From a virus: 24,115 nt of DNA. The stretch is taken from positions 1-24,115 of the IMG/VR virus record IMGVR_UViG_3300030202_000348; one strand, given 5' to 3'. Made by a program: the position numbers and the translations under genes. The notes beneath the pieces were generated by a model that saw only the letters and a program-made list of their open reading frames with translations, did no database searches and was not told the origin of the DNA. Every line of letters begins with the position of its first letter. Within the stretch, counting starts at the first letter, position 1. Shown here piece by piece: positions 1-16,917 of the stretch.

Positions 1-189
1 TGTACCGCGAGTAAAATCTTCGCCTATTTGATCAAATTGTGTGATTACATGACCGTAGATATCTGCAACTTCCGAAGATATAACCGCAACTTCATCTGAG
101 ATATTATCCCAATGATATTTGCTGGTTGTAAGACGCTTAACAAATTTTGTCATAGCGACTAAACGATCATTTTCGTACTTACTATTCAT
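1..189 (-). CDS. Partial hypothetical protein, probably leaderless (C-terminal end off window)
   Basis: Reading leftward, an open frame starts at ATG 189 and runs without a stop through the left edge, giving 63 codons (begins MNSKYENDRLVAMTKFVKRL). I do not recognise a family. The visible part is soluble-looking and probably helical. No Shine-Dalgarno sequence precedes the ATG. Instead a -10 box TATATT (196-201) ends six bases before the ATG, with TTGAAT (218-223) 16 bp upstream of it, so the transcript is predicted to start on or next to the A of the start codon. The terminator at 236-253 separates it from the next leftward unit. The coding call rests on the open frame and the well-placed promoter. 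Confidence 0.6.
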   Translation of the reverse strand, partial: MNSKYENDRLVAMTKFVKRLTTSKYHWDNISDEVAVISSEVADIYGHVITQFDQIGEDFTRGT

Positions 190-195
190 AGTATG

Positions 196-223
196 AATAT
201 AGGAAATCTTAGGATAAATTCAA
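196..223 (-). promoter_or_regulatory. Sigma70-like promoter for the leaderless gene at the left edge
   Basis: On the minus strand: -35 TTGAAT (218-223), 16-bp spacer containing TATCCTAA, -10 TATATT (196-201). The expected start point falls at about 189-190, the first base of the start codon. The spacer shares TTATCCTAA with the promoter at 1528-1555. Confidence 0.6.
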
Positions 224-228
224 GACAT

Positions 229-260
229 AAAAAAAGGCGGTGATGATACCGCCCTTTTTT
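229..260 (-). terminator. Rho-independent terminator, possibly bidirectional
   Basis: Stem GGCGG (236-240) / CCGCC (249-253) with an 8-base loop, flanked by a run of seven A on one side and six T on the other. On the minus strand it follows the 302-residue gene (277-1185) and ends in a T run, so it closes that transcription unit. Confidence 0.8.
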
Positions 261-276
261 GACTGTGAGAATAATG

Positions 277-1185
277 TTAGCTTAAGTGTTGCTGGTTTTC
301 ATTGACGGTGAGAACAACATCAGAGTTTTTAGATTTTCTGCTGGACGCCATGTCTTTTAGCTTCTGCAATCTATCCTGTGATATCACCGCGAGATTAGTT
401 GATAAGTTATCTTCGCCGACTAAAATACTATCTTCGACGTCAGTCCAATACATTTGAACTTCATCTAAATATTTAGCCTGATCAATAACTGTTGCCATAG
501 TGTCCTGACTATCTTTACACCATGTGTAATACTTCTTATGGGCTTGTATGACATCTTCTTTTGAAGATTGATAGTTCATAAGAATTTGCCATTGCCAATC
601 CTGAACTCCATAAGCGCGAGTATGACAACCGCCTGTATTTACAACTTCTAATCCAAATGGATTTACTTTATCATTACCACCGTAGCCAAAATTAAACTGA
701 TCAAAATTATCTTTTAACCAGCCTTCATTTTTACTGCGGTCAGTATTTATAGTGGGATTATTGACACCACCTTGACGACTATATTCAGTTTCGACAAAAG
801 GATTTAATTTATTCGCCATGAGTTTATCATGATTTAAAGCACATGATAAATCTGACGGTAAATTAAAATCAATCCTCACTTCATCACCAGCGTCAGACTG
901 AATATTTTTCATGGTGAAGCAATTATCATTCATAGTAAAATCTCTGCTATGATAATCACCTCGCCCATTATATTTTCTCATTACATCACGATCAGCTTTC
1001 GGATATCTTTTTTCAACCTCAGCTTCTATGATTTGATGAGCGTCATCTTGCGCTCGATACATACGAGTTATGGCGGTGAGTAAATCATCTTTTAGCTCAC
1101 TAGGAGTTTGGTTTACTACTCGCCAATGCTCTTTTTTGAGCGTCGCTCTTTTAGAGTTATTTAATCGTAGTCTATTATCTGTCAT
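277..1185 (-). CDS. Hypothetical protein, 302 aa
   Basis: Not recognised. The protein is hydrophilic with no signal peptide or membrane segment. The N-terminal ~70 residues are charged and probably helical. The middle (about residues 75-200) is rich in Asn, Asp, Gly and aromatics (for example DFTMNDNCFTMKN and FNFGYGGNDKVNPFGLEV), which looks like a compact beta-containing domain. The C-terminus is polar and probably flexible. The start is set by an AAGGAGT Shine-Dalgarno 5 bases before ATG 1185. The stop of the upstream gene (1196) lies only 10 bases away, so the two genes are cotranscribed from the promoter at 1528-1555 and end at the hairpin at 236-253. There is no evidence for function. 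Confidence 0.8.
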   Translation of the reverse strand: MTDNRLRLNNSKRATLKKEHWRVVNQTPSELKDDLLTAITRMYRAQDDAHQIIEAEVEKRYPKADRDVMRKYNGRGDYHSRDFTMNDNCFTMKNIQSDAGDEVRIDFNLPSDLSCALNHDKLMANKLNPFVETEYSRQGGVNNPTINTDRSKNEGWLKDNFDQFNFGYGGNDKVNPFGLEVVNTGGCHTRAYGVQDWQWQILMNYQSSKEDVIQAHKKYYTWCKDSQDTMATVIDQAKYLDEVQMYWTDVEDSILVGEDNLSTNLAVISQDRLQKLKDMASSRKSKNSDVVLTVNENQQHLS

Positions 1186-1195
1186 AGTTTACTCC

Positions 1196-1498
1196 TTACA
1201 GATTATGTAAATTTGGAAGTGAGTTTATATGTTCGTTTCTCTCTTCCATGAAAGTATAAAGGCAATCTAATTTACAAAACATTCCGATTGCCCTCTCATT
1301 GGGTGGTACGTTCCACTCAACTTTTTTTTCGCTCTCGTTGTATCTAGGATTATATTCGCTGGGAATAGATTTGATCACATTGTCTTTTGCAATCTTACCT
1401 GATCTCTTAAAAACATAATTACCGTCACGCCAAGACCGTTTTCCGCCATAGCCATATTGACCGACAGAACTTCCACAAGTCTTACAACATCTAGTCAT
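1196..1498 (-). CDS. Small cysteine-rich putative zinc-binding protein, 100 aa
   Basis: The start chosen is ATG 1498, because AAGAAAGGAAAT lies just upstream and the promoter -10 (1528-1533) sits inside any longer reading of the frame. The protein opens MTRCCKTCGSSVGQYGYGG and carries a C-terminal CKLDC, so two cysteine pairs (CxxC near residue 5 and CxxxC near residue 77) could form a zinc ribbon or treble clef. Between them is a basic stretch. Function is unknown: a DNA-, RNA- or protein-binding adaptor is plausible but is inference. First gene of a two-gene leftward operon with the 302-residue protein. Confidence 0.75.
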   Translation of the reverse strand: MTRCCKTCGSSVGQYGYGGKRSWRDGNYVFKRSGKIAKDNVIKSIPSEYNPRYNESEKKVEWNVPPNERAIGMFCKLDCLYTFMEERNEHINSLPNLHNL

Positions 1499-1527
1499 TT
1501 TGATATTTCCTTTCTTATTAATATAAA

Positions 1528-1555
1528 AATATAAATTGTTAGGATAAGAAGTCAA
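1528..1555 (-). promoter_or_regulatory. Sigma70-like promoter, TTGACT-16 bp-TATATT
   Basis: Minus strand: -35 TTGACT (1550-1555), 16-bp spacer with TTATCCTAA, -10 TATATT (1528-1533). The expected start point near 1521 leaves a leader of about 23 bases carrying the AAGAAAGG ribosome site of the gene starting at 1498. Confidence 0.75.
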
Positions 1556-1566
1556 GAATTAAAAAA

Positions 1567-1592
1567 GGGGTGAGAACAAATAAACTCACCCC
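1567..1592 (-). terminator. Rho-independent terminator
   Basis: Perfect 8-bp stem GGGGTGAG (1567-1574) / CTCACCCC (1585-1592), 10-base loop, followed on the minus strand by TTTTTTAATT. It closes the single-gene unit 1654-2064 and lies just before the promoter at 1528-1555. Confidence 0.85.
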
Positions 1593-1597
1593 TCTTC

Positions 1598-1641
1598 TCG
1601 CGGTCATAAGATTTGCGAAGATCAAGAAAGGTTGACCGCGA
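1598..1641. repeat. Perfect 9-bp inverted repeat in the 3' untranslated region
   Basis: TCGCGGTCA (1598-1606) pairs with TGACCGCGA (1633-1641) across a 26-base loop. It lies between the stop codon at 1654 and the terminator at 1567-1592, so the leftward mRNA would carry two consecutive stem-loops at its 3' end. It lacks a T run and is not itself a terminator. It could be a protective hairpin, a processing site or a DNA-binding site. Confidence 0.6.
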
Positions 1642-1653
1642 AACTTTTAAATA

Positions 1654-2064
1654 TTACTCGTAGTCCTCCATAGGTCTTTTAGCTACTTCCATTGTAGCGG
1701 TATCAGTACGAATAATATAATGACCATTATCACTATTATCACCGTCATTTTTATCCTTTCCGAAGTAATAAGATGAAGATAATAAATTTTCATCTGTTTT
1801 CATTCTTCCTATTTCGCCACCACGAATATACTGACGATCAATTTTATTTCTTCCAATAAAGTCTAAAAATTGTGTCATCATCACTCTAGCCTCATGTCTT
1901 GTAATAGGATCACTCCAATTACTTTCTGCTTTATTTCGATCTTTAAAATCCTTAAACCAATTCAAAGCAAAGTTTGGAAATTCAGTGCCACCCCAATGAT
2001 TAAATAAAGCAATACTTTCGCCACCGTCACTATCTTTAAATGATATACTTACTCTATCACCCAT
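1654..2064 (-). CDS. Conserved-type small phage protein (MGDRVSISF start), 136 aa
   Basis: Begins MGDRVSISFKDSDGG and continues ESIALFNHWGGTEFP. From memory, the pattern G-D-R-V-x-I-x-F, then S-[IV]-A-L-F-x-H-W-G-G, recurs in small hypothetical proteins of phages and prokaryotes with no assigned activity. The N-terminal ~35 residues look like a beta-rich fold; a helical segment (about 35-80) and a polar tail follow. No signal peptide. The start is supported by AAGAAAGGAATA upstream of ATG 2064. It is a single-gene unit with its own promoter (2130-2157), a 5'-terminal hairpin (2085-2122) and a terminator (1567-1592), which suggests independent, probably early, expression. Confidence 0.8.
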   Translation of the reverse strand: MGDRVSISFKDSDGGESIALFNHWGGTEFPNFALNWFKDFKDRNKAESNWSDPITRHEARVMMTQFLDFIGRNKIDRQYIRGGEIGRMKTDENLLSSSYYFGKDKNDGDNSDNGHYIIRTDTATMEVAKRPMEDYE

Positions 2065-2084
2065 ATTTTATTCCTTTCTTTTTG

Positions 2085-2122
2085 GCGAGGGATACAGGAA
2101 AATCCCAGTTTATCCCCCTCGC
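2085..2122 (-). promoter_or_regulatory. 5'-terminal mRNA hairpin in the leader of the 136-aa gene
   Basis: GCGAGGG (2085-2091) and CCCTCGC (2116-2122) form a perfect 7-bp stem. Read on the minus strand, the stem starts 1-2 bases after the predicted transcription start (about 2123) and ends just before the AAGAAAGG ribosome site, which stays free. A second pairing, GGGAT with ATCCC inside the same leader, would compete with it. It may stabilise the mRNA or act as a switch. Confidence 0.5.
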
Positions 2123-2129
2123 TAATTTT

Positions 2130-2157
2130 AATATAATCATCTCCTAAAAAATTGCAA
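2130..2157 (-). promoter_or_regulatory. Leftward promoter, TTGCAA-16 bp-TATATT
   Basis: Minus strand: -35 TTGCAA (2152-2157, within ACTTGCAA), 16-bp spacer, -10 TATATT (2130-2135). The ACTTGCAA element recurs at the replication-operon promoter (14131-14159). Confidence 0.55.
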
Positions 2158-2175
2158 GTAGTTAATAAAAATAAT

Positions 2176-2203
2176 TTGACAATAATATAAAGTCCTATAA
2201 ATT
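2176..2203 (+). promoter_or_regulatory. Rightward promoter for the tiny-gene operon
   Basis: -35 TTGACA (2176-2181), 16-bp spacer containing AGTCCTA, -10 TAAATT (2198-2203), overlapped by TATAAA (2196-2201). The first half closely resembles the leftward promoter at 6482-6509 (TTGAC-AT-ATATAAA-TCC-ATA in both). It is divergent from the promoter at 2130-2157. Confidence 0.55.
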
Positions 2204-2230
2204 TGAGACAGTTATATAAGGAGAAAAATT

Positions 2231-2410
2231 ATGAGTAAATTTAAAGATTGGGTTATGGACGAGGAAGAGAGAGATCAAGAGATAGAAACCAAAGAAGAAT
2301 TTATAAGAGAAGTTAGAGCAATATTAAACGCCAATGAAAAACTTTATGATGTTGGTTTAGCTCAAATTGTCGATATGGTGCATGAATTAGCAGAATCATA
2401 TAGATATTAA
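2231..2410 (+). CDS. Small acidic hypothetical protein, 59 aa
   Basis: ATG 2231 follows an AAGGAG ribosome site at 2218-2223. The product starts MSKFKDWVMDEEERDQEIET and ends HELAESYRY. It is strongly acidic in the first 25 residues and probably all-helical (REVRAILNANEKLYDVGLAQIVDMV). No family is recognised. It is the first gene of a rightward chain of five tiny genes (2231-3054) driven by the promoter at 2176-2203. Phage early regions typically hold such small host-modifying or accessory proteins, but no role can be assigned. Confidence 0.7.
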   Translation: MSKFKDWVMDEEERDQEIETKEEFIREVRAILNANEKLYDVGLAQIVDMVHELAESYRY

Positions 2411-2424
2411 GAAAGGAATAAGAA

Positions 2425-2598
2425 ATGAAAATAGACGCAAAAACAGAAGCAAGTGATGAGCATACACAAAAAGTATTGCAATTAACTATTTCAGATATTA
2501 TGGACTTAAATAATGAGGGTTCAATTCCAAGCGATTTAGTGGATGATTTATATTATTATCTACTAGATAATAAGGCAATAAGAAAGGAACTGAAATGA
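2425..2598 (+). CDS. Small acidic hypothetical protein, 57 aa
   Basis: ATG 2425 is preceded by AAGAAAGGAATAAGA, a strong extended Shine-Dalgarno. The product starts MKIDAKTEASDEHTQKVLQL and ends AIRKELK. It is acidic and helical, with the hydrophobic patch VDDLYYYLLDN near the C-terminus. No family is recognised. Its last codons overlap the next start as ATGA (2595-2598), and the ribosome site of that next gene (AGAAAGGAA) lies inside this gene, a typical translational-coupling arrangement. Confidence 0.7.
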   Translation: MKIDAKTEASDEHTQKVLQLTISDIMDLNNEGSIPSDLVDDLYYYLLDNKAIRKELK

Positions 2599-2774
2599 AC
2601 AGTAGGATAGAGGACATCATACAAGACATACGAGATTTAAGAGATGATAAATCTCATTCATGCCCGAACAACAAAGACGATCAATTAGAATGCACTTGTA
2701 TTAAGTATGATCGTGTCATTGATAAGTTAGAGGATTTGTATAGAATGATGATAGCTCAAGGCTTCATCAACTAA
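2595..2774 (+). CDS. Small hypothetical protein with CxC motif, 59 aa
   Basis: ATG 2595 overlaps the previous stop (ATGA) and has AGAAAGGAA at a suitable distance. The product starts MNSRIEDIIQDIRDLRDDKS, a charged amphipathic helix, then SHSCPNNKDDQLECTCIKYD, then a second helix ending MMIAQGFIN. Three cysteines (residues 23, 33 and 35) plus His21 could bind a metal between two helices. No family is recognised. Its stop overlaps the next start as TAATG. Confidence 0.7.
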   Translation: MNSRIEDIIQDIRDLRDDKSHSCPNNKDDQLECTCIKYDRVIDKLEDLYRMMIAQGFIN

Positions 2775-2983
2775 TGAAAAGCAAATATTCTTACGATCAA
2801 GTTTTACCAGATTACATCATTAACAAAACTAACGGTGAGAAGTTAGTCAAGCGAAAATGTTTTCATTGCAACAAAGAATCAATGATGACTAAGTTTCAGC
2901 GGTGGTGTTCTGCTCATTGTAAGCACATGGCTACACAAGATTATGATAGCTACACACAAGACGATTATAAGGTTAGTAAATAA
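2774..2983 (+). CDS. Small putative zinc-finger protein, 69 aa
   Basis: ATG 2774 shares its A with the previous stop codon (TAATG); no strong ribosome site of its own, so coupled translation is likely. It carries CFHCN (CxxC, residues 29-32) and CSAHC (CxxxC, residues 45-49), spaced like a treble-clef or MYM/FCS-type zinc finger, in a basic context (KLVKRKC, KFQRWCSAHCKH). The C-terminus is polar. The zinc-binding call is by motif only and the target is unknown. Its stop overlaps the next ATG as TAATG. Confidence 0.7.
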   Translation: MKSKYSYDQVLPDYIINKTNGEKLVKRKCFHCNKESMMTKFQRWCSAHCKHMATQDYDSYTQDDYKVSK

Positions 2984-3054
2984 TGTTTATTTTAATTTTT
3001 TGGGAAATTATATTAATTATATTGGCTATTGCGGTTCTTCTACTTCTTCGATAA
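2983..3054 (+). CDS. Possible 23-aa single-span membrane microprotein
   Basis: ATG 2983 shares its A with the TAA of the zinc-finger gene. The frame is 23 residues, almost entirely hydrophobic (IILIILAIAVLLLL) and ends in Arg, so it would be one membrane span. Its last 29 bases overlap, antisense, the end of the small-terminase gene (3026-3526). Support is the TAATG coupling, which continues the pattern of the preceding genes, and the clean membrane-segment composition. AT-rich DNA can produce such frames by chance, so confidence is limited. Regulatory or holin-like roles are possible but unsupported. Confidence 0.4.
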   Translation: MFILIFWEIILIILAIAVLLLLR

Positions 3055-3526
3055 CTTTAACTTCCATACCAATAGACTCTCCATTAACAACATTGTGATC
3101 TCTAATCTCTTTTAGCTTGGCTTCCAACTCAGGTCTAGTCATGTTATCGAGAGAGGCGGTCACTACTTCTTTACGGTCAATATAAAAACCAGCTAACTGA
3201 CCACGACGATACTCTGCCTGAACGGCTGGGCCTAACTGACCATTAGCAACAGCTTGTTCTCTTAGTCTTGACAGCTCACGCTGGTGAGTGACAAAAGTAA
3301 TCTTACTCGCTTCTGCATACTCTCGCTGTAACTCTTCAATGGCTTTGACAACAGTAGGAAAGTATTTAGGGTTTCTTAAATTACAAGCTTGAGATACTGC
3401 TGAACGCTCAGAATATCCAGCTTGTCTTGCACATTCTGTGGCGGTCAAACGACCATTCTCTTTTACAAATATCTCAACAAATCTCTTTTGTTTAGGTGAT
3501 AGCTCACCATTTTTTATTCTAGGCAT
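3026..3526 (-). CDS. Phage terminase small subunit-like protein, 166 aa
   Basis: Residues 8-65 match the terminase small subunit (Terminase_2 type) pattern: LSPKQKRFVEIFVKENGR, then ATECARQAGYSE, then NLRNPKYFPTVVKAIEEL. In that family the N-terminal helix-turn-helix binds the packaging site and the protein oligomerises and hands DNA to the large subunit. Residues ~65-110 (QREYAEASKITF, ELSRLREQA) form the helical oligomerisation region; the C-terminus is acidic (EVKVIEEVEEPQ). No good ribosome site precedes ATG 3526, but no better in-frame start is seen. It is a single leftward gene: no large terminase lies next to it in this window. The non-coding region just upstream carries the GTTAC repeats (3628-3720). 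Confident in the family, less in the exact function. Confidence 0.7.
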   Translation of the reverse strand: MPRIKNGELSPKQKRFVEIFVKENGRLTATECARQAGYSERSAVSQACNLRNPKYFPTVVKAIEELQREYAEASKITFVTHQRELSRLREQAVANGQLGPAVQAEYRRGQLAGFYIDRKEVVTASLDNMTRPELEAKLKEIRDHNVVNGESIGMEVKVIEEVEEPQ

Positions 3527-3596
3527 TTTTTTACTTTAATACACTTTTTCAATTCTGTATAGATTTTTTTAATTCAATATTATAATTAATAATACT

Positions 3597-3623
3597 ACTT
3601 TCAGTTCAAAAAAGACATATAGG
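3597..3623 (+). repeat. Flanking direct repeat, copy 1
   Basis: ACTTTCAGTTCAAAA at 3597-3611 and TATAGG at 3618-3623. It is matched by ACTTTCAGTTTAAAA and TATAGG at 3749-3773, with a 2-base length difference. Confidence 0.6.
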
Positions 3624-3627
3624 GTGA

Positions 3628-3652
3628 GTTACCTGTGGTTACCTGTGGTTAC
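3628..3652 (+). repeat. Tandem 10-bp iteron-like repeats
   Basis: GTTACCTGTG occurs twice head to tail (3628-3637, 3638-3647), followed directly by a third partial copy GTTAC (3648-3652). The 10-bp period would place the copies on the same DNA face. Confidence 0.8.
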
Positions 3653-3702
3653 GTCATAGAAGTAACCATACTATTGTTGATTTACAATGGTTTTTCACTA
3701 AA

Positions 3703-3720
3703 GTTACGTGGTTACCTCTG
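3703..3720 (+). repeat. Second cluster of GTTAC repeats
   Basis: GTTACGTG (3703-3710) is followed directly by GTTACCTCTG (3711-3720). An inverted copy, GTAACC, lies between the clusters at 3662-3667. Confidence 0.7.
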
Positions 3721-3748
3721 TTTTGTCGAATTTGCAAAAACATAAATC

Positions 3749-3773
3749 ACTTTCAGTTTAAAATATCTATAGG
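3749..3773 (+). repeat. Flanking direct repeat, copy 2
   Basis: ACTTTCAGTTTAAAA from 3749, and TATAGG at 3768-3773. Same element and orientation as 3597-3623; together they bracket the GTTAC repeats. Confidence 0.6.
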
Positions 3774-3783
3774 AAAATAAAAA

Positions 3784-3799
3784 GGGGGCCGAAGCCCCC
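3784..3799 (-). terminator. Rho-independent terminator with TTCG tetraloop
   Basis: GGGGGC (3784-3789) / GCCCCC (3794-3799). On the minus strand the loop reads TTCG and the stem is followed by TTTTTATTTT. It closes the 54-residue gene 3808-3972 and separates it from the terminase gene. Confidence 0.9.
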
Positions 3800-3807
3800 T
3801 GATTTAA

Positions 3808-3972
3808 TTACTCGTATGTTTCTGGTTGACTTCCAAGACACTCAGTTAGCTCATAATATAGATCCATTTCTTCTTTTGTAAGATCTTCTTTTTCAGCCGT
3901 CCTAGAGAGACAATCATATAAAAGTTGAACTTCTTTAACAGTAAGTTCTGGTTCTTTAATAAATTTTGCCAT
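3808..3972 (-). CDS. Small acidic helical protein, 54 aa
   Basis: ATG 3972 is preceded on the minus strand by AGAAAGGAAAAAC and by a near-consensus promoter (TTGACT-17-TATAGT, 4003-4031). The frame ends TAA 3808, just before a strong terminator. The product starts MAKFIKEPELTVKEVQLLYD and ends SQPETYE. It is acidic, probably two helices with two cysteines (CLSRTAEKEDL and TECLGS). No family is recognised. A private promoter, ribosome site and terminator make a real, strongly expressed gene very likely despite its size. It is divergent from the lysis region. Confidence 0.75.
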   Translation of the reverse strand: MAKFIKEPELTVKEVQLLYDCLSRTAEKEDLTKEEMDLYYELTECLGSQPETYE

Positions 3973-4002
3973 TTTTTGTTTTTCCTTTCTATTTAATATC
4001 TT

Positions 4003-4031
4003 ACTATATCCTATTAAATCCCATAAGTCAA
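4003..4031 (-). promoter_or_regulatory. Near-consensus leftward promoter, TTGACT-17 bp-TATAGT
   Basis: Minus strand: -35 TTGACT (4026-4031), 17-bp spacer, -10 TATAGT (4003-4008). The -35 box lies within an inverted repeat, CCCAT (4020-4024) / ATGGG (4031-4035), a possible operator. Confidence 0.75.
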
Positions 4032-4045
4032 TGGGACAAAGTGTC
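4020..4045. promoter_or_regulatory. Possible operator between divergent promoters
   Basis: Two adjoining short dyads: CCCAT (4020-4024) / ATGGG (4031-4035) and GACA (4035-4038) / TGTC (4042-4045). They cover the leftward -35 box and sit between the two divergent promoters. Short dyads also arise by chance. Confidence 0.35.
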
Positions 4046-4061
4046 GCATTTTAATCATCAA

Positions 4062-4089
4062 TTGACAATAAGTCCTAAATAGTTATATT
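4062..4089 (+). promoter_or_regulatory. Rightward promoter for leader RNA and lysis genes, TTGACA-16 bp-TATATT
   Basis: -35 TTGACA (4062-4067), 16-bp spacer with AGTCCTAA, -10 TATATT (4084-4089). The expected start point, 4095-4097, coincides with the first base of the AGGGCTAATG stem at 4095. Confidence 0.75.
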
Positions 4090-4094
4090 TAAAT

Positions 4095-4170
4095 AGGGCT
4101 AATGACGATTCCTCCTTTCTATAACACACGACCCCTTCTTCGAGGTCATTTTCATTGAGCATTAGCCCTT
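4095..4170 (+). ncRNA. Candidate structured leader or small RNA with anti-Shine-Dalgarno loop
   Basis: Perfect 10-bp closing stem AGGGCTAATG (4095-4104) / CATTAGCCCT (4160-4169), beginning at the predicted transcription start. The enclosed loop carries CCTCCTTTCT (4111-4120), the sequence I know from the 3' end of 16S rRNA in many alphaproteobacteria and bacilli, and a small hairpin GACC (4131-4134 region) / GGTC (4144-4147). Only three T follow the stem, so a separate RNA would need processing or another stop signal. The same stretch also encodes an 18-codon frame (4102-4158, MTIPPFYNTRPLLRGHFH), so a leader-peptide attenuator is the alternative. Function is inferred. Confidence 0.4.
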
Positions 4171-4190
4171 TAATGTGATAAAAGTATTCT

Positions 4191-4481
4191 ATGAAAAAGA
4201 AGCCACAGAGCGAGACTATCTATCCCATGGTCCTTGTTTCGTGGTACGACGCCAAAGACGGAGATACGGGTTGGCATAGCTTAGAGGACATAAAAAAAGA
4301 AAGACTAGCACTATGTCATTCAATGGGTTGGATGGTATACAAAGACAAAGAAAAAACAATCATTATGGCAGATTACTCAGAATTCGACGATGAAAAAGAC
4401 GGTGGACGTCACATTATCATTCCGTCAGGCTGGGTGAAGTCCATAGCATTTTTAGATATACACAGAATGGAGAGAAACTAA
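4191..4481 (+). CDS. Conserved-type phage hypothetical protein, 96 aa
   Basis: Starts MKKKPQSETIYPMVLVSWYD. The pattern of short beta strands (PMVLVSWYDA, TIIMADYSEFD, RHIIIPSGWVKSIAFL) around a Trp-rich centre (GWHSLEDI, CHSMGWMVYKD) looks like a small alpha/beta fold. The motif V-x-W-x-D-A-x-D, followed by a C-terminal IIIP-x-G-W-V, is one I associate with uncharacterised phage proteins. No catalytic motif. ATG 4191 has no clear ribosome site, which is notable because the leader just upstream is heavily structured. The stop shares an A with the lysozyme start (TAATG), so this gene is translationally coupled to lysis. Confidence 0.75.
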   Translation: MKKKPQSETIYPMVLVSWYDAKDGDTGWHSLEDIKKERLALCHSMGWMVYKDKEKTIIMADYSEFDDEKDGGRHIIIPSGWVKSIAFLDIHRMERN

Positions 4482-4918
4482 TGGATATGCAAAGACTATT
4501 AAAATCAGTACGTGATCATGAAGGTTACCGCAACAAGGTCTACTTAGACACACTAGGCAAGAGAACTGTGGGCGTCGGCCATCTTTGCGTCGAAGATTTT
4601 TGGGAAGATAATAAAGAATACGACGAAGAATTTTTAATGGAAATATTAGAAAAAGATTTAGAGAACGCGATATCAGGAGCAGAAGATTTACTCGGTGAGT
4701 CCATGGTCCATGATCAATGCAAGGAGATTATCGTCGAGATGGTATTTCAACTTGGAAAAACCGGCGTGAGTAAGTTCCGCAACATGTGGTCAGCGCTAAA
4801 AGAAAAGACACCACCAGACTATAAAACCGCGGCGGCCGAAATGCTCGATTCGCGTTGGGCCAAGCAGACCCCCAATCGCGCAAGTAAAATGTCAGAGCTT
4901 ATGGCGAGCCTGGCGTAG
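4481..4918 (+). CDS. T4-type endolysin (GH24 lysozyme, muramidase)
   Basis: 145 residues, the usual length for a phage GH24 lysozyme. It would cleave the beta-1,4 bond between N-acetylmuramic acid and N-acetylglucosamine at the end of infection. The catalytic triad is in place: Glu14 in RDHEGYRNKVYLD, Asp23 in YLDTLGKRT, Thr29 in TVGVGH; the spacing (9 and 6) equals Glu11/Asp20/Thr26 of T4 lysozyme. The C-terminal signature SRWAKQTPNRASKM parallels T4 WAKQTPNRA. No signal peptide or signal-anchor, so release needs a holin; a candidate lies at 5204-5332. ATG 4481 overlaps the previous stop (TAATG); Met3 (4487) is a possible alternative start. The stop TAG overlaps the next GTG (TAGTG). Confidence 0.93.
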   Translation: MDMQRLLKSVRDHEGYRNKVYLDTLGKRTVGVGHLCVEDFWEDNKEYDEEFLMEILEKDLENAISGAEDLLGESMVHDQCKEIIVEMVFQLGKTGVSKFRNMWSALKEKTPPDYKTAAAEMLDSRWAKQTPNRASKMSELMASLA

Positions 4919-5145
4919 TGGACGACGATTTACTTAAATGGGACGGCTTTGATGATGCGATTATCGGAGTGGGTTCGCGTTGTGGTATGGACGATATATT
5001 AGTTTACAGTAAAAAGAAGATGGCTTACATTTTAAGAGACAGAGATGACATGGATGTAGAAGAGGCAATAGAATACCTCGATTTTAACGTTTTAGGGGCC
5101 TACATAGGCAAAAGAACACCTATCATAGTACAAGACTTCATCTAA
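4918..5145 (+). CDS. Small acidic conserved-type phage protein, 75 aa, GTG start
   Basis: The start is GTG 4918, sharing its G with the lysozyme stop (TAGTG). The product begins MDDDLLKWDGFDDAIIGVGS and contains DILVYSKKKMAYIL, then DMDVEEAIEYLDFNVLGAYIG, ending RTPIIVQDFI. The order W-D-G-F-D-D-A-I-I-G, D-I-L-V-Y, EEA-x-E-Y-x-x-x-N, G-x-R-T-P-I-I-V is, to my memory, common in small hypothetical proteins of many phages and plasmids; none has a proven activity that I know. It is probably a compact alpha/beta protein. It sits in the lysis operon, but that alone does not make it a lysis protein. The stop overlaps the next ATG (TAATG). Confidence 0.8.
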   Translation: MDDDLLKWDGFDDAIIGVGSRCGMDDILVYSKKKMAYILRDRDDMDVEEAIEYLDFNVLGAYIGKRTPIIVQDFI

Positions 5146-5219
5146 TGGAAGAAGAGGTCACAGAAATCTGTCCTATCTGTGAATTTGACGTGGAGGAGTG
5201 CGATTGTTTTACATACTAA
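5145..5219 (+). CDS. 24-aa cysteine-rich microprotein
   Basis: ATG 5145 shares its A with the previous stop (TAATG). The product MEEEVTEICPICEFDVEECD ends CFTY. It has a CPIC knuckle and a CDC pair, four cysteines that could hold one zinc ion, on an otherwise acidic peptide. Its final codons contain the ribosome site (GGAGG, 5192-5196) and overlap the start (TTG 5204) of the next gene. It may be a real microprotein or mainly a coupling frame. The cysteine pairing argues for the former. Confidence 0.5.
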   Translation: MEEEVTEICPICEFDVEECDCFTY

Positions 5220-5332
5220 CAATTATTTTATTATTACTCATCGTCACATTATTAGCGCTTTTATGCGTTATGGTCTATGCAATCGGTGATCAATTACACG
5301 AGAGCCGAGATCCCAATAATAAAAGAGATTGA
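5204..5332 (+). CDS. Candidate holin: 42-aa single-span membrane protein, TTG start
   Basis: The frame opens with TTG 5204, seven bases after GGAGG (5192-5196), the strongest ribosome site of this operon. No ATG start is available upstream and the first internal ATG (residue 23) would remove the membrane span. Residues 2-27 (FYILTIILLLLIVTLLALLC then VMVYA) form one long hydrophobic segment; the C-terminus (QLHESRDPNNKRD) is short, polar and charged. Size, single span, charged tail and position after a signal-less lysozyme fit a single-span holin of the T7 gp17.5 type, but such proteins share little sequence and the role is inferred. It overlaps the cysteine microprotein by 16 bases. Confidence 0.55.
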   Translation: MFYILTIILLLLIVTLLALLCVMVYAIGDQLHESRDPNNKRD

Positions 5333-5356
5333 TTTTTAATCTTCGCTTAGTATAAA
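5329..5356 (+). promoter_or_regulatory. Possible rightward promoter, TTGATT-16 bp-TATAAA
   Basis: -35 TTGATT (5329-5334), overlapping the stop of the holin candidate; 16-bp spacer; -10 TATAAA (5351-5356). The start would be near 5363, giving a short leader with an ACAGGAG ribosome site before ATG 5390. Confidence 0.45.
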
Positions 5357-5389
5357 ATAGGAAGTTTACACTATATACAGGAGATTAAA

Positions 5390-5566
5390 ATGAACATTGA
5401 TGAAATGAAGAGCGTTATCGTCTACTTAACAGACAAGGTAACCAAACTAGAACAAGAGAATATTGCACTATCGAATAAAAAATTATGTGAATGCGAACAA
5501 GAAGAAGAGGCACCAATACCTGTAGGAAACAACATTATTAGATTATTTCCTTACACGGAGGCGTAA
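5390..5566 (+). CDS. Small coiled-coil protein, 58 aa
   Basis: ATG 5390 follows ACAGGAGATTAAA, a good ribosome site. The product starts MNIDEMKSVIVYLTDKVTKL and continues EQENIALSNKKLCECEQEEE before a short tail, NNIIRLFPYTEA. The first ~32 residues show heptad-like hydrophobic spacing (I, V, L, V, L, I, L) and probably form a coiled-coil dimer; CEC and a run of Glu follow. No family is recognised. It is the last rightward gene before a convergent junction. A spanin role is unlikely, as there is neither a signal peptide nor a membrane segment. Confidence 0.65.
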   Translation: MNIDEMKSVIVYLTDKVTKLEQENIALSNKKLCECEQEEEAPIPVGNNIIRLFPYTEA

Positions 5567-5574
5567 GCGGATAC

Positions 5575-5616
5575 GGCGACGATTGCGTCTCTTTTTGGAC
5601 CCTACTTTACGTCGCC
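5575..5616. terminator. Inverted repeats at a convergent gene junction (possible bidirectional terminator)
   Basis: GGCGACG (5575-5581) pairs with CGTCGCC (5610-5616). A competing short hairpin, GACG (5578-5581) / CGTC (5586-5589), is followed by TCTTTTT and could stop rightward transcripts. It lies between the rightward gene ending at 5566 and the leftward gene ending at 5619. Tails are weak in both directions. Confidence 0.4.
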
Positions 5617-5618
5617 CC

Positions 5619-5801
5619 TTATGCTTTTTCTTTTTTAGTACGGAACTCATCTCTGTCCTGATCCATTTGCTGAACCCTTGCTCTCCAATAATCTCTTTCT
5701 TTCTCGGCCAGATCTTCCCACCGCGATTGTTTAAATCCTCGTCTATCTGATTTATATCTCAGATTCTTTGCTCTCTTATCATAAACTGTGAAGTCACTCA
5801 T
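5619..5801 (-). CDS. Small highly charged hypothetical protein, 60 aa
   Basis: Starts MSDFTVYDKRAKNLRYKSDR. It is almost entirely charged and predicted helical in the second half (WEDLAEKERDYWRARVQQMD), ending KKEKA. The net charge is basic at both ends with an acidic middle, consistent with nucleic-acid or protein binding. No family is recognised. ATG 5801 overlaps the stop of the upstream gene as ATGA. It is the last gene of the leftward replication operon. Confidence 0.65.
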   Translation of the reverse strand: MSDFTVYDKRAKNLRYKSDRRGFKQSRWEDLAEKERDYWRARVQQMDQDRDEFRTKKEKA

Positions 5802-5995
5802 TTAAATTCATTAATAGATTGTTCGTGTTTCTTCCACAAACGACGACCGTCTTGTAATGTTATTTCCCAATCAATAACATCAAACTCTTTTATTGTACCG
5901 TCAGTATAATGAACTCGGACGCGATTGATTACGTCACCTGACTCTGGATTTTTTTCTTGAAATCTAACGACGCCACTAACTATTTTTTTTATCAT
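5798..5995 (-). CDS. Small hypothetical protein, beta-rich, 65 aa
   Basis: Starts MIKKIVSGVVRFQEKNPESG and reads as alternating short beta strands (VINRVRVHYTDGTIKEFDVIDWEITL) followed by a basic helix (GRRLWKKHEQSINEFK), possibly a small beta-barrel plus helix. No family is recognised. It overlaps the end of the upstream gene by 20 bases and the start of the downstream gene by 4, so it is cotranslated with both. Confidence 0.65.
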   Translation of the reverse strand: MIKKIVSGVVRFQEKNPESGDVINRVRVHYTDGTIKEFDVIDWEITLQDGRRLWKKHEQSINEFK

Positions 5996-6263
5996 CCTTT
6001 ACGTGCCCTTGTGCAGGCATATTTGTAAAGTAAATGGAACGCACATCCTTTATGGCGTGTTGTAGTTCAGCTTTCTCTCTTAGCACATTGTATAACTCTT
6101 TGATATGTTCAGCGTGATCATGTTCTTTACTTGTGATGTACGCTGGTACATTTGTTAATAAAACTTCTTTTGCTTCTAGCTCTGATAAATTACCTATCAT
6201 CTTATTCAATACTGATATGTATAAAGCTCTTTTAACGTTATCCTTGTTCTGTTGTTCTTGCAC
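5976..6263 (-). CDS. Hypothetical helical protein, 95 aa (GTG start preferred)
   Basis: The open frame extends up to 6323, but that would overlap the upstream ribbon-helix-helix gene by 86 bases. I prefer GTG 6263, because GGAGAGG (6270-6276) lies six bases upstream of it; ATG 6278 lacks a ribosome site. The product (V)QEQQNKDNVKRALYISVLNK continues with helices GNLSELEAKEVLL and EHDHAEHIKELYNVLREKAE, with several histidines. No family is recognised. It overlaps the upstream gene end (6238) by 26 bases. Confidence 0.6.
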   Translation of the reverse strand: MQEQQNKDNVKRALYISVLNKMIGNLSELEAKEVLLTNVPAYITSKEHDHAEHIKELYNVLREKAELQHAIKDVRSIYFTNMPAQGHVKDDKKNS

Positions 6264-6438
6264 TGTGGTCCTCTCCATTCTGTATGGTTGGTTGATTGCT
6301 TTCTTGATTATGTTCTTTGTCAATTAAATAGTGTAAATAAGAACCCATAGACATATACTTGTTTTGTGCCATGGGCTTTGCCTTGTTGTACACATCAATT
6401 TTTATGGCTACAGATTTATACTTAGTAACATCTGTCAT
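6238..6438 (-). CDS. Ribbon-helix-helix (Arc/MetJ-like) DNA-binding protein, 66 aa
   Basis: Starts MTDVTKYKSVAIKIDVYNKA. Residues ~8-45 have the ribbon-helix-helix layout: a short strand (KSVAIKID), helix A (VYNKAKPMAQNKY), a turn, and helix B (SMGSYLHYLIDKEHNQ). In this fold the paired strands of a dimer read the major groove. The tail (residues 46-66) is polar. TAGGAGAAAGAA before ATG 6438 gives a strong ribosome site. A private promoter (6482-6509) precedes it within the replication operon. It may regulate one of the phage promoters, possibly its own; that is inference from fold and size only. Confidence 0.6.
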   Translation of the reverse strand: MTDVTKYKSVAIKIDVYNKAKPMAQNKYMSMGSYLHYLIDKEHNQESNQPTIQNGEDHSARTTEQG

Positions 6439-6481
6439 TTCTTTCTCCTAAATATTATATCTTGTTTCATATAATAATAGG

Positions 6482-6509
6482 TATATATGGGAATTTATAT
6501 GATAGTCAA
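6482..6509 (-). promoter_or_regulatory. Internal leftward promoter, TTGACT-16 bp-TATATA
   Basis: Minus strand: -35 TTGACT (6504-6509), 16-bp spacer, -10 TATATA (6482-6487). It resembles the promoter at 2176-2203 over about 28 bases. It would allow the small genes 5619-6438 to be expressed separately from the polymerase genes. Confidence 0.55.
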
Positions 6510-6516
6510 GGACAAT

Positions 6517-6741
6517 CTATGTGTCTTGTTTATATAAAATATCCTCTAAACTAGCGGCTTGGACGCAATTAAACGACATACTAACGTATCCAGTAAGGTC
6601 TATTAGGTCGTCTTGAACCCACTGATAGTATTCATTACAGTCCTCATAGTTAGCGTGAGTTACCTCAGATGCTACTCTCAAACAATTCTGATCTATACCA
6701 GTGCCTATGCACATCCAACCAATTAAAAAAAATTTTAACAT
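6517..6741 (-). CDS. Small probably exported protein, 74 aa
   Basis: Starts MLKFFLIGWMCIGTGIDQNC. A Lys plus a 12-14-residue hydrophobic stretch looks like a short signal peptide or signal anchor. The remainder is acidic and aromatic with two further cysteines (EDCNEYYQWVQ and FNCVQAA), which fits an oxidised periplasmic protein. No family is recognised. ATG 6741 follows the upstream stop directly (TAA-ATG) with AAAGGAG as ribosome site. A secreted protein at the tail of a replication operon is unusual. Superinfection exclusion is one possibility, unsupported beyond topology. Confidence 0.7.
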   Translation of the reverse strand: MLKFFLIGWMCIGTGIDQNCLRVASEVTHANYEDCNEYYQWVQDDLIDLTGYVSMSFNCVQAASLEDILYKQDT

Positions 6742-7020
6742 TTACTCCTTTTCGATGTACTCGAATTCTACTTTCAACCTTATCTGTTCCTTGGTCCGTT
6801 GTCTAATAATCTTTGATCCCGGTCGCCAACTTTTTGTCCTGCGTGATGTTGTCTTAACATCTATGAGTCTGACCTCTCCTGTCTCATGGTGAACTAACAC
6901 CATGTCAATGGGACCAGAACTCGATACGTTTTTAAATACCTCGTAGCCTTGCTCTAAGAACTTAATGATAGCTCTATGTTCACTGACGTCACCAATTACC
7001 CTTTTTTCATTTCTCCCCAT
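6742..7020 (-). CDS. PD-(D/E)XK-type endonuclease, putative Holliday junction resolvase-like, 92 aa
   Basis: Starts MGRNEKRVIGDVSEHRAIIK. The nuclease core is readable: Glu14 in the first helix (DVSEHRA), Asp39 in SGPIDMVLV, then Asp54-x-Lys56 in RLIDVKTTS, the E...D...(D/E)xK order of small resolvases and intron-associated PD-(D/E)XK enzymes. A basic tail (RRTKSWRPGSKIIRQRTKEQ) would hold DNA. At 92 residues it is minimal. It directly follows the polymerase gene with a 25-base overlap, the place where T7-like phages often keep a recombination nuclease (T7 gp3 is also PD-(D/E)XK). Junction resolution or host-DNA breakdown is therefore likely. Whether it acts on junctions is not shown by the sequence. 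Confidence 0.75.
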   Translation of the reverse strand: MGRNEKRVIGDVSEHRAIIKFLEQGYEVFKNVSSSGPIDMVLVHHETGEVRLIDVKTTSRRTKSWRPGSKIIRQRTKEQIRLKVEFEYIEKE

Positions 7021-8861
7021 GATGATCCTATATCCATATCTACTTTCAAAGGTACCTTTAATTGCACTGTATTTTCCATTGCTTCTTTAATTTTTTGCGC
7101 CTGCTCATCAGATTCAATCGAACAGTTTAACTCATCGTGAACTTGTATATGAGATACAATTCCTTGCTCATATAAATCCACCATAGCTTTTTTAGTCATG
7201 TCTGCACTAGATCCTTGTATCAATCTATTCAAAGCTTTATAAGTCCATGCACGTTTTAAGTCACGGCCATATTCTTTCTCTGCTTGCCATAATGGTAACG
7301 GTTTATGTATACCAAATGCTCGTGGTTCCCATGTATCAAAACGACATTTACGACCTAGCAGTGTTCGAAGAAAGCCTACGTTTTCTGCTTTGCGTGTCGC
7401 TTGTTCCATTAACTGTTTTACAAAAGGCACGTTAGCGTGAAACTGTGTAAATAAATCTTCTGTTTCATCTCTATCTAATCCAAGCTCACTTGCAAGCTTA
7501 CCTTTACCCATGCCATACATCATCCCTAAATTAATTGTTTTCGCGGTTCTTCTATCTATACCAGCCATATCTGCAACGGCTTGGTGAAAGTCTGGGTCCT
7601 CGTGCTTATAAGATTCAATCACTTCACCAGCACCTTTTAATCCACCGCTAGTTAATGAAGCGAAGTGAACTAACACTCTAGGTTCTTGTTGACTGTAATC
7701 AAAACTACCCCACTTACATTTTTCATTAGGAACAAAGATAGACCTGATCATTGGTCCGATATCCTTGTTTCTAGCTGGAATCTGCTGGAGATTAGGATTA
7801 CTATAACTAAATCTACCCGTGACTGTACCACCACTTTCACTACGCATTTGATGTATGTCAGCGTGAATACGACCTTTGTGTTCATGAGTGAGTATCGTAT
7901 CAATGAATGTAGTACGTGCTTTATTAAACTCTCTGGCCTGCACTATCATTTTAGCTAACGGATGTTTGTGTGTTGTTAAAAAATTTTTATCAAACTTTGG
8001 TTGACCTGACTTCGGTGTTCTTTCATAAGATATCTCTAGCTTATCAAAAGCTTTAGCCACGCTGACGGCAGCCCAAACATCTACATCAACTCCTGTGTCT
8101 TGTTTAATTTTATATAAAAGATCTTTTTCTTTTTTACTCAAATCTATTTTTATGTGATTAGCTTTTTGTAAATCAACGCGAACTCCATTAGATTTCATAT
8201 CTAACAGACATGGGAAGAGCCGTGTTTCGAGATCAAAGATACTTGATAGCTCTTGCTTAATTAATTCTACTTTAAAAAACTGCCATAATCTCAACGTCAG
8301 ATCAGCATCTTGCTCTGCATAAGGGCCCACATACATAGGCGGTAACTTATACATTTCAGCTTTAGCATCGACGCCCCATTCTTTTGCGGCCTCATATAAT
8401 AAACCCTCTGACTTAGTATCTTTTAAATAATCTCTTCCTAATTCATTTAAGGAGTATCTAAATCTATTTTCATCAATTAGCGGAGCAGCTATCAGTGTAT
8501 CAATAATTTTACCTTTGACCTCTATACCCCACCAGCGAAGCCACCCCACGTCATAAGAAGCATTGTGAAATATCTTATCACAGGGTAACTCCATAATTTT
8601 TTTTACTTGGCGCTTGACAATCTTCTCATCAAAATTACCACCGCCTTCATGACGTATTGGAAAATATCCTTTCCAACCGTCTACTGCTATTGCAACTCCA
8701 GCTATAAAACCGTCACCCCTAGGCCATCCTGGGCCCATAGTCTTGATGTTAGGATCACAAGTTTCTAAGTCTACTGCTATCTCTGTAGCCTCTGTTAAGT
8801 TAGGCACCTTCTCAGGTGGCGTCCACTCGCTAGGTGGTTGAAACAAAGGCATTTGAGTCAC
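6996..8861 (-). CDS. Family A DNA polymerase with 3'-5' exonuclease
   Basis: 621 residues, T7-like in layout (T7 gp5 is 704), without a 5' nuclease domain. Proofreading domain: exo I AVDLETCD (Asp31, Glu33), exo II FHNASYDVGW (Asp104), exo III YAEQDADLTL (Tyr181, Asp185). Polymerase domain: TGRFSYSNPNLQQIP (348-362), motif A FDYSQQEPR (Asp388, Glu393), motif B RRTAKTINLGMMYG (Arg437, Lys441, Tyr449), motif C QVHDELN (His575, Asp576, Glu577). All catalytic acids are present. The start is GTG 8861 in a TAGTG overlap with the upstream stop, with AGAGGA just before; ATG 8852 is the alternative. It would replicate the phage genome together with the primase, helicase and SSB-like protein of the same operon. 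No insertion matching the T7 thioredoxin-binding loop stands out. Confidence 0.95.
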   Translation of the reverse strand: MTQMPLFQPPSEWTPPEKVPNLTEATEIAVDLETCDPNIKTMGPGWPRGDGFIAGVAIAVDGWKGYFPIRHEGGGNFDEKIVKRQVKKIMELPCDKIFHNASYDVGWLRWWGIEVKGKIIDTLIAAPLIDENRFRYSLNELGRDYLKDTKSEGLLYEAAKEWGVDAKAEMYKLPPMYVGPYAEQDADLTLRLWQFFKVELIKQELSSIFDLETRLFPCLLDMKSNGVRVDLQKANHIKIDLSKKEKDLLYKIKQDTGVDVDVWAAVSVAKAFDKLEISYERTPKSGQPKFDKNFLTTHKHPLAKMIVQAREFNKARTTFIDTILTHEHKGRIHADIHQMRSESGGTVTGRFSYSNPNLQQIPARNKDIGPMIRSIFVPNEKCKWGSFDYSQQEPRVLVHFASLTSGGLKGAGEVIESYKHEDPDFHQAVADMAGIDRRTAKTINLGMMYGMGKGKLASELGLDRDETEDLFTQFHANVPFVKQLMEQATRKAENVGFLRTLLGRKCRFDTWEPRAFGIHKPLPLWQAEKEYGRDLKRAWTYKALNRLIQGSSADMTKKAMVDLYEQGIVSHIQVHDELNCSIESDEQAQKIKEAMENTVQLKVPLKVDMDIGSSWGEMKKG

Positions 8862-9124
8862 TAGTCCTCTTTTTGAATTTCAGCCGCTATAGCTGCGTAC
8901 CCAGCGATATCTATATAAGAATCGGGTGTTGCTTTATGTTTTATTCTAGCAACCTTCATCAATAGCATACACATGGCCACGTCGTGAGCGGAAATATCTT
9001 TTCCTAAATAAGAACTCCATAGAGCTGCAATATTACAATGCGTGATAGTTTTATCACCGTAATCATTTGCTCTAGGGCCTGTTACTAATCTAATAGCTTC
9101 TTGTAAACACTTTTCACTTTGCAT
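8861..9124 (-). CDS. Conserved phage protein of DUF6378 type, 87 aa
   Basis: Starts MQSEKCLQEAIRLVTGPRAN. The pattern A-x-x-L-V-x-G-x-R-x-x-D-Y-G-D, then NIAALWSSYL, HDVAMCMLLMKVARI and PDSYIDIAGYAAIAAE is the one I know from phage proteins labelled DUF6378. They are all-helical, and the K-x-x-R plus D-x-x-D-I-A-G-Y arrangement resembles MazG-like all-alpha NTP pyrophosphohydrolases, which would fit nucleotide-pool control beside a polymerase. The enzymatic role is inference, as few acidic metal ligands are evident. ATG 9124 has AAAAGGAG at a good distance. Its stop overlaps the polymerase start (TAGTG). Confidence 0.75.
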   Translation of the reverse strand: MQSEKCLQEAIRLVTGPRANDYGDKTITHCNIAALWSSYLGKDISAHDVAMCMLLMKVARIKHKATPDSYIDIAGYAAIAAEIQKED

Positions 9125-9299
9125 CTTCTTTCTCCTTTTGCTGTTGTAAGTCTTGTAGTAATTGTTCTAAATCTTTCTTTAAAACTTTTACTGCTTTATC
9201 TAAGTCATCACGTCTAAGCTTCGCGCCTTCTGCCCTGACTTTAGAAATCTGTTTAATAGTTATCTGAAGTTGTTTGATAACAACGTTTGTAAATGACAT
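9114..9299 (-). CDS. Small coiled-coil protein, 61 aa
   Basis: Starts MSFTNVVIKQLQITIKQISK. Almost the whole length is one Leu/Val/Ile heptad helix (DDLDKAVKVLKKDLEQLLQD) ending in a Gln/Lys-rich tail. It would dimerise as a coiled coil. ATG 9299 overlaps the helicase stop (TAATG) and has GGAGG seven bases upstream. It overlaps the DUF6378-type gene by 11 bases. No family is recognised. Its place between helicase and polymerase genes suggests, without proving, a replication accessory role. Confidence 0.65.
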   Translation of the reverse strand: MSFTNVVIKQLQITIKQISKVRAEGAKLRRDDLDKAVKVLKKDLEQLLQDLQQQKEKEDAK

Positions 9300-16401: not shown

Positions 16402-16917
16402 CTATTTTGTTTTTGCAGACATTCCAGTCAAAGGATTGTTTAAAGCTTTATTAATCTTTAAATCTAAATTATCTTCCAATAATTTCATTTCTTCTAAAAG
16501 CTCTCTATTATCTTCCTTTTGTCTGTCCTCTACATCATTGACTATTTCTGTTATATGGCGAACATCACCTTCCATTTGACGTAGATCTGTTTTTAAATCA
16601 TCCTTAAGTTCTCTTGCAGTTGATGCAATGAGATTTACTTCTTCTAAAACTATATCTAATTCACTTTTCAAACCTTCTACTTTCTGTATTACAATTTCCA
16701 TTTGTGCTTTCGTTTCACTTTCAAGAAGTGAAATCTTCTTATCAAAGCCTGATAAATCCGGCTCAGTATAAGTTAAAATTTTTTCCTTCATGTTAAGATA
16801 ATCCTGATAAAAAGTGAAGCCAGTCCAAGCTGCACCTCCTAAGGCAGATAACAAAGTTAATATGGCAAAGACTTTTCCTCCTGTGAACTTCATGCCTGCA
16901 TACTCAATACTGGTCAT
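16402..16917 (-). CDS. Membrane-anchored coiled-coil protein, 171 aa
   Basis: Starts MTSIEYAGMKFTGGKVFAIL. One membrane span covers residues ~16-37 (KVFAILTLLSALGGAAWTGF). Then comes a long coiled coil (about 43-160: KEKILTYTEPDL, KISLLESETKAQMEIVIQKV, LKDDLKTDLRQMEGDVRHI, EDNRELLEEMKLLEDNLDLK). The C-terminus is short and basic. The topology suits an inner-membrane protein with a large coiled-coil domain, as for i-spanins or tail-associated membrane proteins; neither is proven. GGAGG nine bases before ATG 16917 sits inside the end of the upstream gene, and the overlap (14 bases) implies coupling. Confidence 0.75.
   Translation of the reverse strand: MTSIEYAGMKFTGGKVFAILTLLSALGGAAWTGFTFYQDYLNMKEKILTYTEPDLSGFDKKISLLESETKAQMEIVIQKVEGLKSELDIVLEEVNLIASTARELKDDLKTDLRQMEGDVRHITEIVNDVEDRQKEDNRELLEEMKLLEDNLDLKINKALNNPLTGMSAKTK

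Follow-up and report, generated by a model that had tools for sequence, protein, structure and literature searches.

A conserved promoter-leader element with an anti-Shine-Dalgarno copy precedes the lysis operon of a putative SAR11 phage

Results

The window analysed here is the whole stretch of 24,115 nt that forms positions 1 to 24,115 of IMG/VR record IMGVR_UViG_3300030202_000348. Its lysis operon begins on the plus strand with a gene for a 96-aa protein (4191-4481; phrog_25889) that possesses no Shine-Dalgarno (SD) site, and continues with a lysozyme (endolysin) gene (4481-4918; PF00959, 3.5e-9; phrog_7 endolysin, 3.1e-13) and, 3′ of it, a 75-aa gene (4918-5145; phrog_13182); a 44-aa protein with one hydrophobic stretch, possibly a small lysis membrane protein, is encoded at 5198-5332. 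Ahead of the operon, a promoter (4062-4089, plus strand) is formed by TTGACA (4062-4067) and TATATT (4084-4089) with 16 nt between them, and behind it a leader RNA element (4095-4168, plus strand) runs from the predicted transcript start at 4095/4096 to the end of a closing stem. The arms of this stem, GGGCTAATG (4096-4104) and CATTAGCCC (4160-4168), enclose CCTCCTTTCT (4111-4120), a copy of what we take to be the anti-Shine-Dalgarno (aSD) tail of 16S rRNA, in the form generally known from alphaproteobacteria. They also enclose a GACC/GGTC inner hairpin (4130-4147) covering an SD-like site, GAGGT (4142-4146). A UUG codon 8 nt beyond that site opens a 7-codon open reading frame (ORF), MSISPLM (4155-4178), which is the candidate coupling ORF of the operon.

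Upstream of the leader lie a conserved noncoding block of 243 bp (3534-3776), which contains GGTTACC repeats (GGTTACCTGT) and two ACTTTCAGTTYAAAA...TATAGG motifs, and a divergent small-gene cassette (3808-3972, minus strand) with a strong terminator (3783-3800) and its own promoter (4031-4003, minus strand) just upstream of the leader promoter. Elsewhere in the window, the minus strand at 16904-18619 encodes a 571-aa protein with a long, repetitive stretch rich in Pro, Glu and Met. By its polymerase and small terminase, the phage lies close to the HTVC023P pelagiphages, and we infer a Pelagibacter/SAR11 host.

Relatives were collected by a protein search with the gene downstream of the leader, by two pattern scans and by a looser scan. 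At least about 35 IMG/VR contigs carry the leader, in at least 15 distinct promoter-leader sequences; the invariance of arms and core, the pairing and the hairpin were counted over 13 versions, and the geometry of the UUG-ORF stop over 21 distinct versions. The looser scan returned mostly chance matches, its additions among the matches listed being L051, L121 and L205, and of six further stem-only matches five were unrelated and one (L121) was a true variant. No credible match was found in 50,697 phage records, where permissive blastn yielded only chance matches of 22-35 nt, or in 84,980 host genomes, where exact 19-mer matches in Vibrio and Helicobacter (n=2) were rejected because all other parts of the element were missing. 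A covariance model likewise found no credible match in HTVC023P, HTVC027P, 023Pt_psg01, DSL-LC04 and eight distant contigs, the best score in those records being a partial 42-nt match of 17 bits (E 0.018). The leader is also missing where the first lysis gene is only distantly related (46-72% identity), a search of Rfam 15 over the element gave no match at E up to 1, and a literature search found no pelagiphage noncoding RNA of this kind. The element is a real, previously undescribed promoter-leader unit of the lysis operon.

The promoter had been placed correctly by the first-pass annotation, and it is conserved in the relatives: TTGACA and TATA are invariant across 15 distinct versions, separated by a spacer of 16 or 17 nt. 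In the window it matches the consensus at 11 of 12 positions and is the top promoter-like site within positions 1-12000. In every version the closing stem opens the predicted transcript, preceded by one unpaired base at most, and the earlier proposal of a transcript that begins on its own closing stem is upheld as a prediction from the promoter position and the stem at 4095. The perfect 10-bp stem that had been described (4095-4104 with 4160-4169) is present in the window, but its outermost A-U pair, formed by A4095, occurs as a tenth pair in the window only, and the relatives have 9 bp. From the promoter TTGACA to CATTAGCCC the sequences can be aligned throughout although the loop varies in length; the leader measures 74-77 nt from A4095 and 73-76 nt between the two ends of the stem.

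The fit of promoter, stem and loop had been presented as a surprise, and here the stem taken by itself is unremarkable, since 3.2 perfect 10-bp inverted repeats with spacers of 20-80 nt are expected in the window and 4 occur. It is the conservation that exceeds chance. All columns are invariant over the 13 versions in GGGCTAATG (9/9), ATTCCTCCTTT (11/11) and CATTAGCCC (9/9), so that both arms are the same in 13/13. In the next gene, by comparison, 6 of 20 fourfold-degenerate sites are invariant, as are 2 of the 11 columns directly 3′ of the aSD copy. Because the arms, CCTCCTTT and the promoter are kept while the other loop sequence and its length change, the leader is real, and a chance inverted repeat, with which the stem alone would be compatible, was rejected on this conservation. 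The 76-nt RNA folds better than its shuffles (z = -3.0). It had been suggested that relatives be examined for a maintained stem and a conserved loop segment, and both are kept; the hoped-for covariation is absent, however, because the stem never varies (9/9 pairs kept, none variable, in 13 versions), and the RNA structure therefore rests on a single perfect inverted repeat at the start site. In predicted folds that include 100 nt of downstream sequence, the closing stem is lost in L004, L027 and L030, which counts against the leader reading. The 4-bp stem of the inner hairpin (GAYC/GGTC in relatives) is readable in 13/13 versions, with one G-U variant (L070).

The 10-base aSD copy that had been claimed lies at 4111-4120 as described, but its last two bases vary among relatives (CCTCCTTTCT, CCTCCTTTTT or CCTCCTTTAT), leaving CCTCCTTT (4111-4118) as the conserved core. 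One copy of CCTCCTTTCT was found against 0.05 expected (5 of 100 shuffles), and CCTCCTTT occurs a single time in the whole 38.5-kb record. Exposure of the core in a loop is borne out as far as folding predictions go: CCUCCUUU is strictly conserved and predicted to be mostly unpaired, with an unpaired probability of 0.83 in the window and, for the isolated leaders, of 0.73-0.87 in the main group and 0.54-0.63 in the L015/L021 group. In the alignment consensus, CCUU pairs with the RAGG of the SD-like site in 12/13 versions, a pairing that competes with the GAYC/GGUC hairpin kept in 13/13; in single-sequence ensembles the CCUCCUUU-RAGG pairing has a probability of at most 0.03, except for 0.17 in L050. 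Read on the minus strand as a Shine-Dalgarno sequence, AGAAAGGAGG has no ATG, GTG or TTG at a suitable distance, and this candidate was discarded. The predicted complement of the core, AGAAAGGA, was indeed found upstream of five genes (starts at 1498, 2064, 2425, 2595 and 3972), where it represents ordinary Shine-Dalgarno usage and not a mark of pairing targets. Full AGAAAGGA sites are limited to small genes at the record's left end; the remaining genes have shorter or AGGAG-type sites.

The leader had also been proposed to be the attenuator leader of the lysis operon, encoding an 18-codon peptide (4102-4158, plus strand). Its place as a lysis-operon leader holds, whereas the peptide does not. 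Loop indels put the frame from 4102 into three registers among the relatives (MTIPPFYNTRPLLRGHFH, MNYSSFITIGPFLRGHFFIEH, MTIPPFYNNDPFSSWSFSLSISPFS), such that CCTCCTTT is read as Pro-Pro-Phe or Ser-Ser-Phe, and the frame probably yields no functional peptide. Of all the observations, this retention of the nucleotides without the peptide argues most strongly for selection on the RNA or the DNA. A transcription attenuator with an 18-codon leader peptide is accordingly highly improbable, since the frame, though open in the window, is not conserved and its indels are not multiples of three, which refutes a sequence-specific peptide, and the operon shows no terminator.

In all 21 distinct versions, the UUG-started ORF stops at -4, +12, +13 or -23 nt relative to the ATG of the first lysis gene, though the offset differs modulo 3, and no SD site of the first lysis gene was found in the sequences upstream of the lysis ATG in any of the 21. 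Such closeness of stop and lysis start in every version (-23 to +13 nt) is what translational coupling would be expected to produce. Three arrangements occur 3′ of CATTAGCCC, the lysis ATG following after 6 nt, after 22-23 nt, or after 101-102 nt behind a small CxxC gene. In the last of these the leader UUG opens a 39-45 aa CxxC (zinc-ribbon-like) protein (L001, L009, L015, L016, L043, L050), for which no Pfam match and at best a weak PHROG match (E 0.12) was found; L090 has a similar-looking protein with its own ATG before the lysis gene. The UUG frame of the long forms is the only stop-free frame and, with 6, 2 and 9 variable sites at codon positions 1, 2 and 3, looks coding. Several points count against coupling: UUG is a weak start codon, the SD-like site of the ORF (RAGG in 12/13 versions) is weak and becomes AUGG in L011, and the spacing of -23 nt (L015, L021) comes close to the limit at which coupling works.

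The flank upstream of the leader is exchangeable. Between the leader promoter and the other conserved block there may lie either the 3808-3972 cassette, carried by some relatives and cleanly missing from many, or a palindromic insert; in L070 and L009, an insert of the TTTCCCAT...ATGGGAAA type sits between TATAGGAAA and TTGACA. That the palindromic insert occupies the spot of the window's cassette suggests an insertion hot spot. The 243-bp block has a mean pairwise difference of 0.078, compared with 0.33 at fourfold sites, which makes it as conserved as the leader, and its length is identical in 11 of 13 relatives compared. Because of this block, conservation alone does not single out a function for the leader, which is better seen as one component of a control region, or regulatory hub, between terS and the lysis genes. 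Recombination at this control region may add to the sequence identity observed.

Discussion

We consider, at a probability of roughly 55%, that this region is the promoter of the phage lysis operon together with a structured 5′ leader, which would meter lysis-gene expression by translational coupling and by the aSD copy. A 5′ leader is the default reading because there is no terminator, because the sequence after the stem is variable, and because the element always precedes the same lysis gene. This gene follows directly in all 33 sequences that carry the 19-base 3′ end, and in every copy with a readable downstream flank; no terminator-like site was found ahead of or within the operon between 4100 and 5200, that is, within 1 kb downstream; and the lysis gene is only 22 nt from the leader, leaving no room for a further promoter. 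To these the sequence comparison adds the conserved promoter, arms and CCUCCUUU, the missing SD site and the stop/start geometry, from which a transcript start, a fold in the cell, coupling and a role for the aSD copy may be proposed.

Under this proposal, transcription would start at about 4096, so that the mRNA 5′ end would be GGGCUAAUG, which would pair with CAUUAGCCC 55-58 nt later and form a loop enclosing the exposed CCUCCUUU and the small hairpin. Ribosomes would load at the leader UUG by way of the RAGGU site, partly hidden in the hairpin, and would translate the 7-codon ORF or the longer inserted gene, thereby melting the closing stem. They would terminate beside the lysis AUG and re-initiate there, which would be the main route to the SD-less lysis gene, and the closing stem may additionally cap the 5′ end of the mRNA. 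CCUCCUUU would most likely tune loading by competing with 16S rRNA for an SD sequence, either the leader's own RAGG or others. The predicted outcome is a low output of lysis protein until operon mRNA is abundant. The coupling mechanism is well motivated by the arrangement of the ORFs, and for the aSD copy a metering of initiation in cis is the role that we prefer.

The first-pass annotation had proposed a free regulatory RNA of 75-100 nt, and here the missing terminator, the variable sequence after the stem and the constant position before the lysis gene speak otherwise. A trans-acting sRNA might still be produced if the 5′ stretch of the operon were freed by processing or by early termination at the stem base, whereupon CCUCCUUU would lower translation at phage or host SD sites. 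The conserved unit stops at the stem base, both its flanks are exchangeable, CCUCCUUU is invariant and mostly unpaired, and an RNA whose two ends are paired in a stem would presumably be stable; aSD motifs are also conserved and unpaired in alphaproteobacterial AbcR sRNAs (PMC7143759). However, besides the lack of a terminator and the lysis gene that adjoins every copy with a readable flank, 8 nt complementary to a generic SD site would give little choice of target, and the element is absent elsewhere in the phages searched, the host genomes having given just two unrelated chance matches. We regard an sRNA as possible, and as less likely than an operon leader.

The closing stem might instead serve as a plain 5′ stabiliser that guards the lysis mRNA from 5′-end-dependent decay, with CCUCCUUU kept for an unrelated reason. 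This is unlikely: the stem does stand at the predicted start with no more than a single unpaired base in every version, but the invariance of ATTCCTCCTTT (11/11) and the conserved context of the UUG would be left unexplained. Slightly more doubtful again is a role at the DNA level, in which the conserved stretch from terS to the lysis genes would be a terminase (cos/pac), origin or operator region and the arms would be half-sites for protein binding. The adjoining 243 bp, possibly an origin, a terminase site or a phage promoter region, carries GGTTACC repeats, is conserved at least as strongly as the leader and is itself adjoined by terS, and cassettes are inserted between the two conserved blocks; against this, a conserved promoter stands exactly before the 5′ arm, and the arms do not recur as an operator elsewhere in the record, where only scattered 7-8-mers are found. 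Equally doubtful is the idea of a phage mimic of the 16S 3′ tail, in which the leader, whole or processed, would act in trans late in infection by occupying SD sites or factors that bind the 16S tail, dampening other messages.

Lysis timing decides burst size, and SAR11 are the ocean's most abundant bacteria; our literature search found no description of lysis-timing control in SAR11 phages. If the leader works as we propose for the operon-leader reading, it would constitute a lysis timer in which a 5′ stem and a 7-codon coupling ORF are combined with an aSD-tail copy inside the leader. Should the aSD copy act in trans, it would represent a new phage route to interfere with translation initiation. 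The leader also provides a compact RNA marker that is missing from all annotated collections searched.

Among known pelagiphages, HTVC023P, HTVC027P and 023Pt_psg01 encode a DNA polymerase and a terminase small subunit related to those of this phage (50-60% and 30-42% identity, respectively), and they differ in that the leader was not found in their records; the HTVC023P group is a podovirus group (PMC9599517). With the AbcR (alpha-r15) and cuckoo sRNAs (PMC7143759) the leader has in common an aSD motif left unpaired within a structured RNA, but those are separate trans-acting sRNAs, whereas the element described here is an operon leader without a terminator or an Rfam match.

The closest parallels to the proposed coupling come from the RNA phages GA, fr and MS2 (PMC9955659, PMC12548453), in which the lysis start likewise lies beside or overlaps the stop of an upstream ORF. 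The present case differs from these in concerning a double-stranded DNA phage, analysed here at the sequence level, in having as its upstream ORF a tiny UUG leader ORF instead of the coat gene, and in having a leader that contains an aSD copy, with a stem at the transcript 5′ end. In GA, only ribosomes that come from the upstream ORF translate the SD-less lysis gene; AUGA junctions are functional there, and coupled reading is blocked when the upstream ORF has 3-5 codons and allowed when it has 6-7 (PMC9955659), so that the 7-codon UUG ORF fits what is permitted there. A study cited in a review (PMC12548453) reports coupling to be undiminished at spacings of -4 to +25 nt and abolished at -25, a range with which the spacings between UUG-ORF stop and lysis start agree. 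The leader and its operon thus share with GA an SD-less lysis gene, an AUGA-type junction and an upstream ORF of at least 6 codons, and with MS2 an RNA structure near the start.
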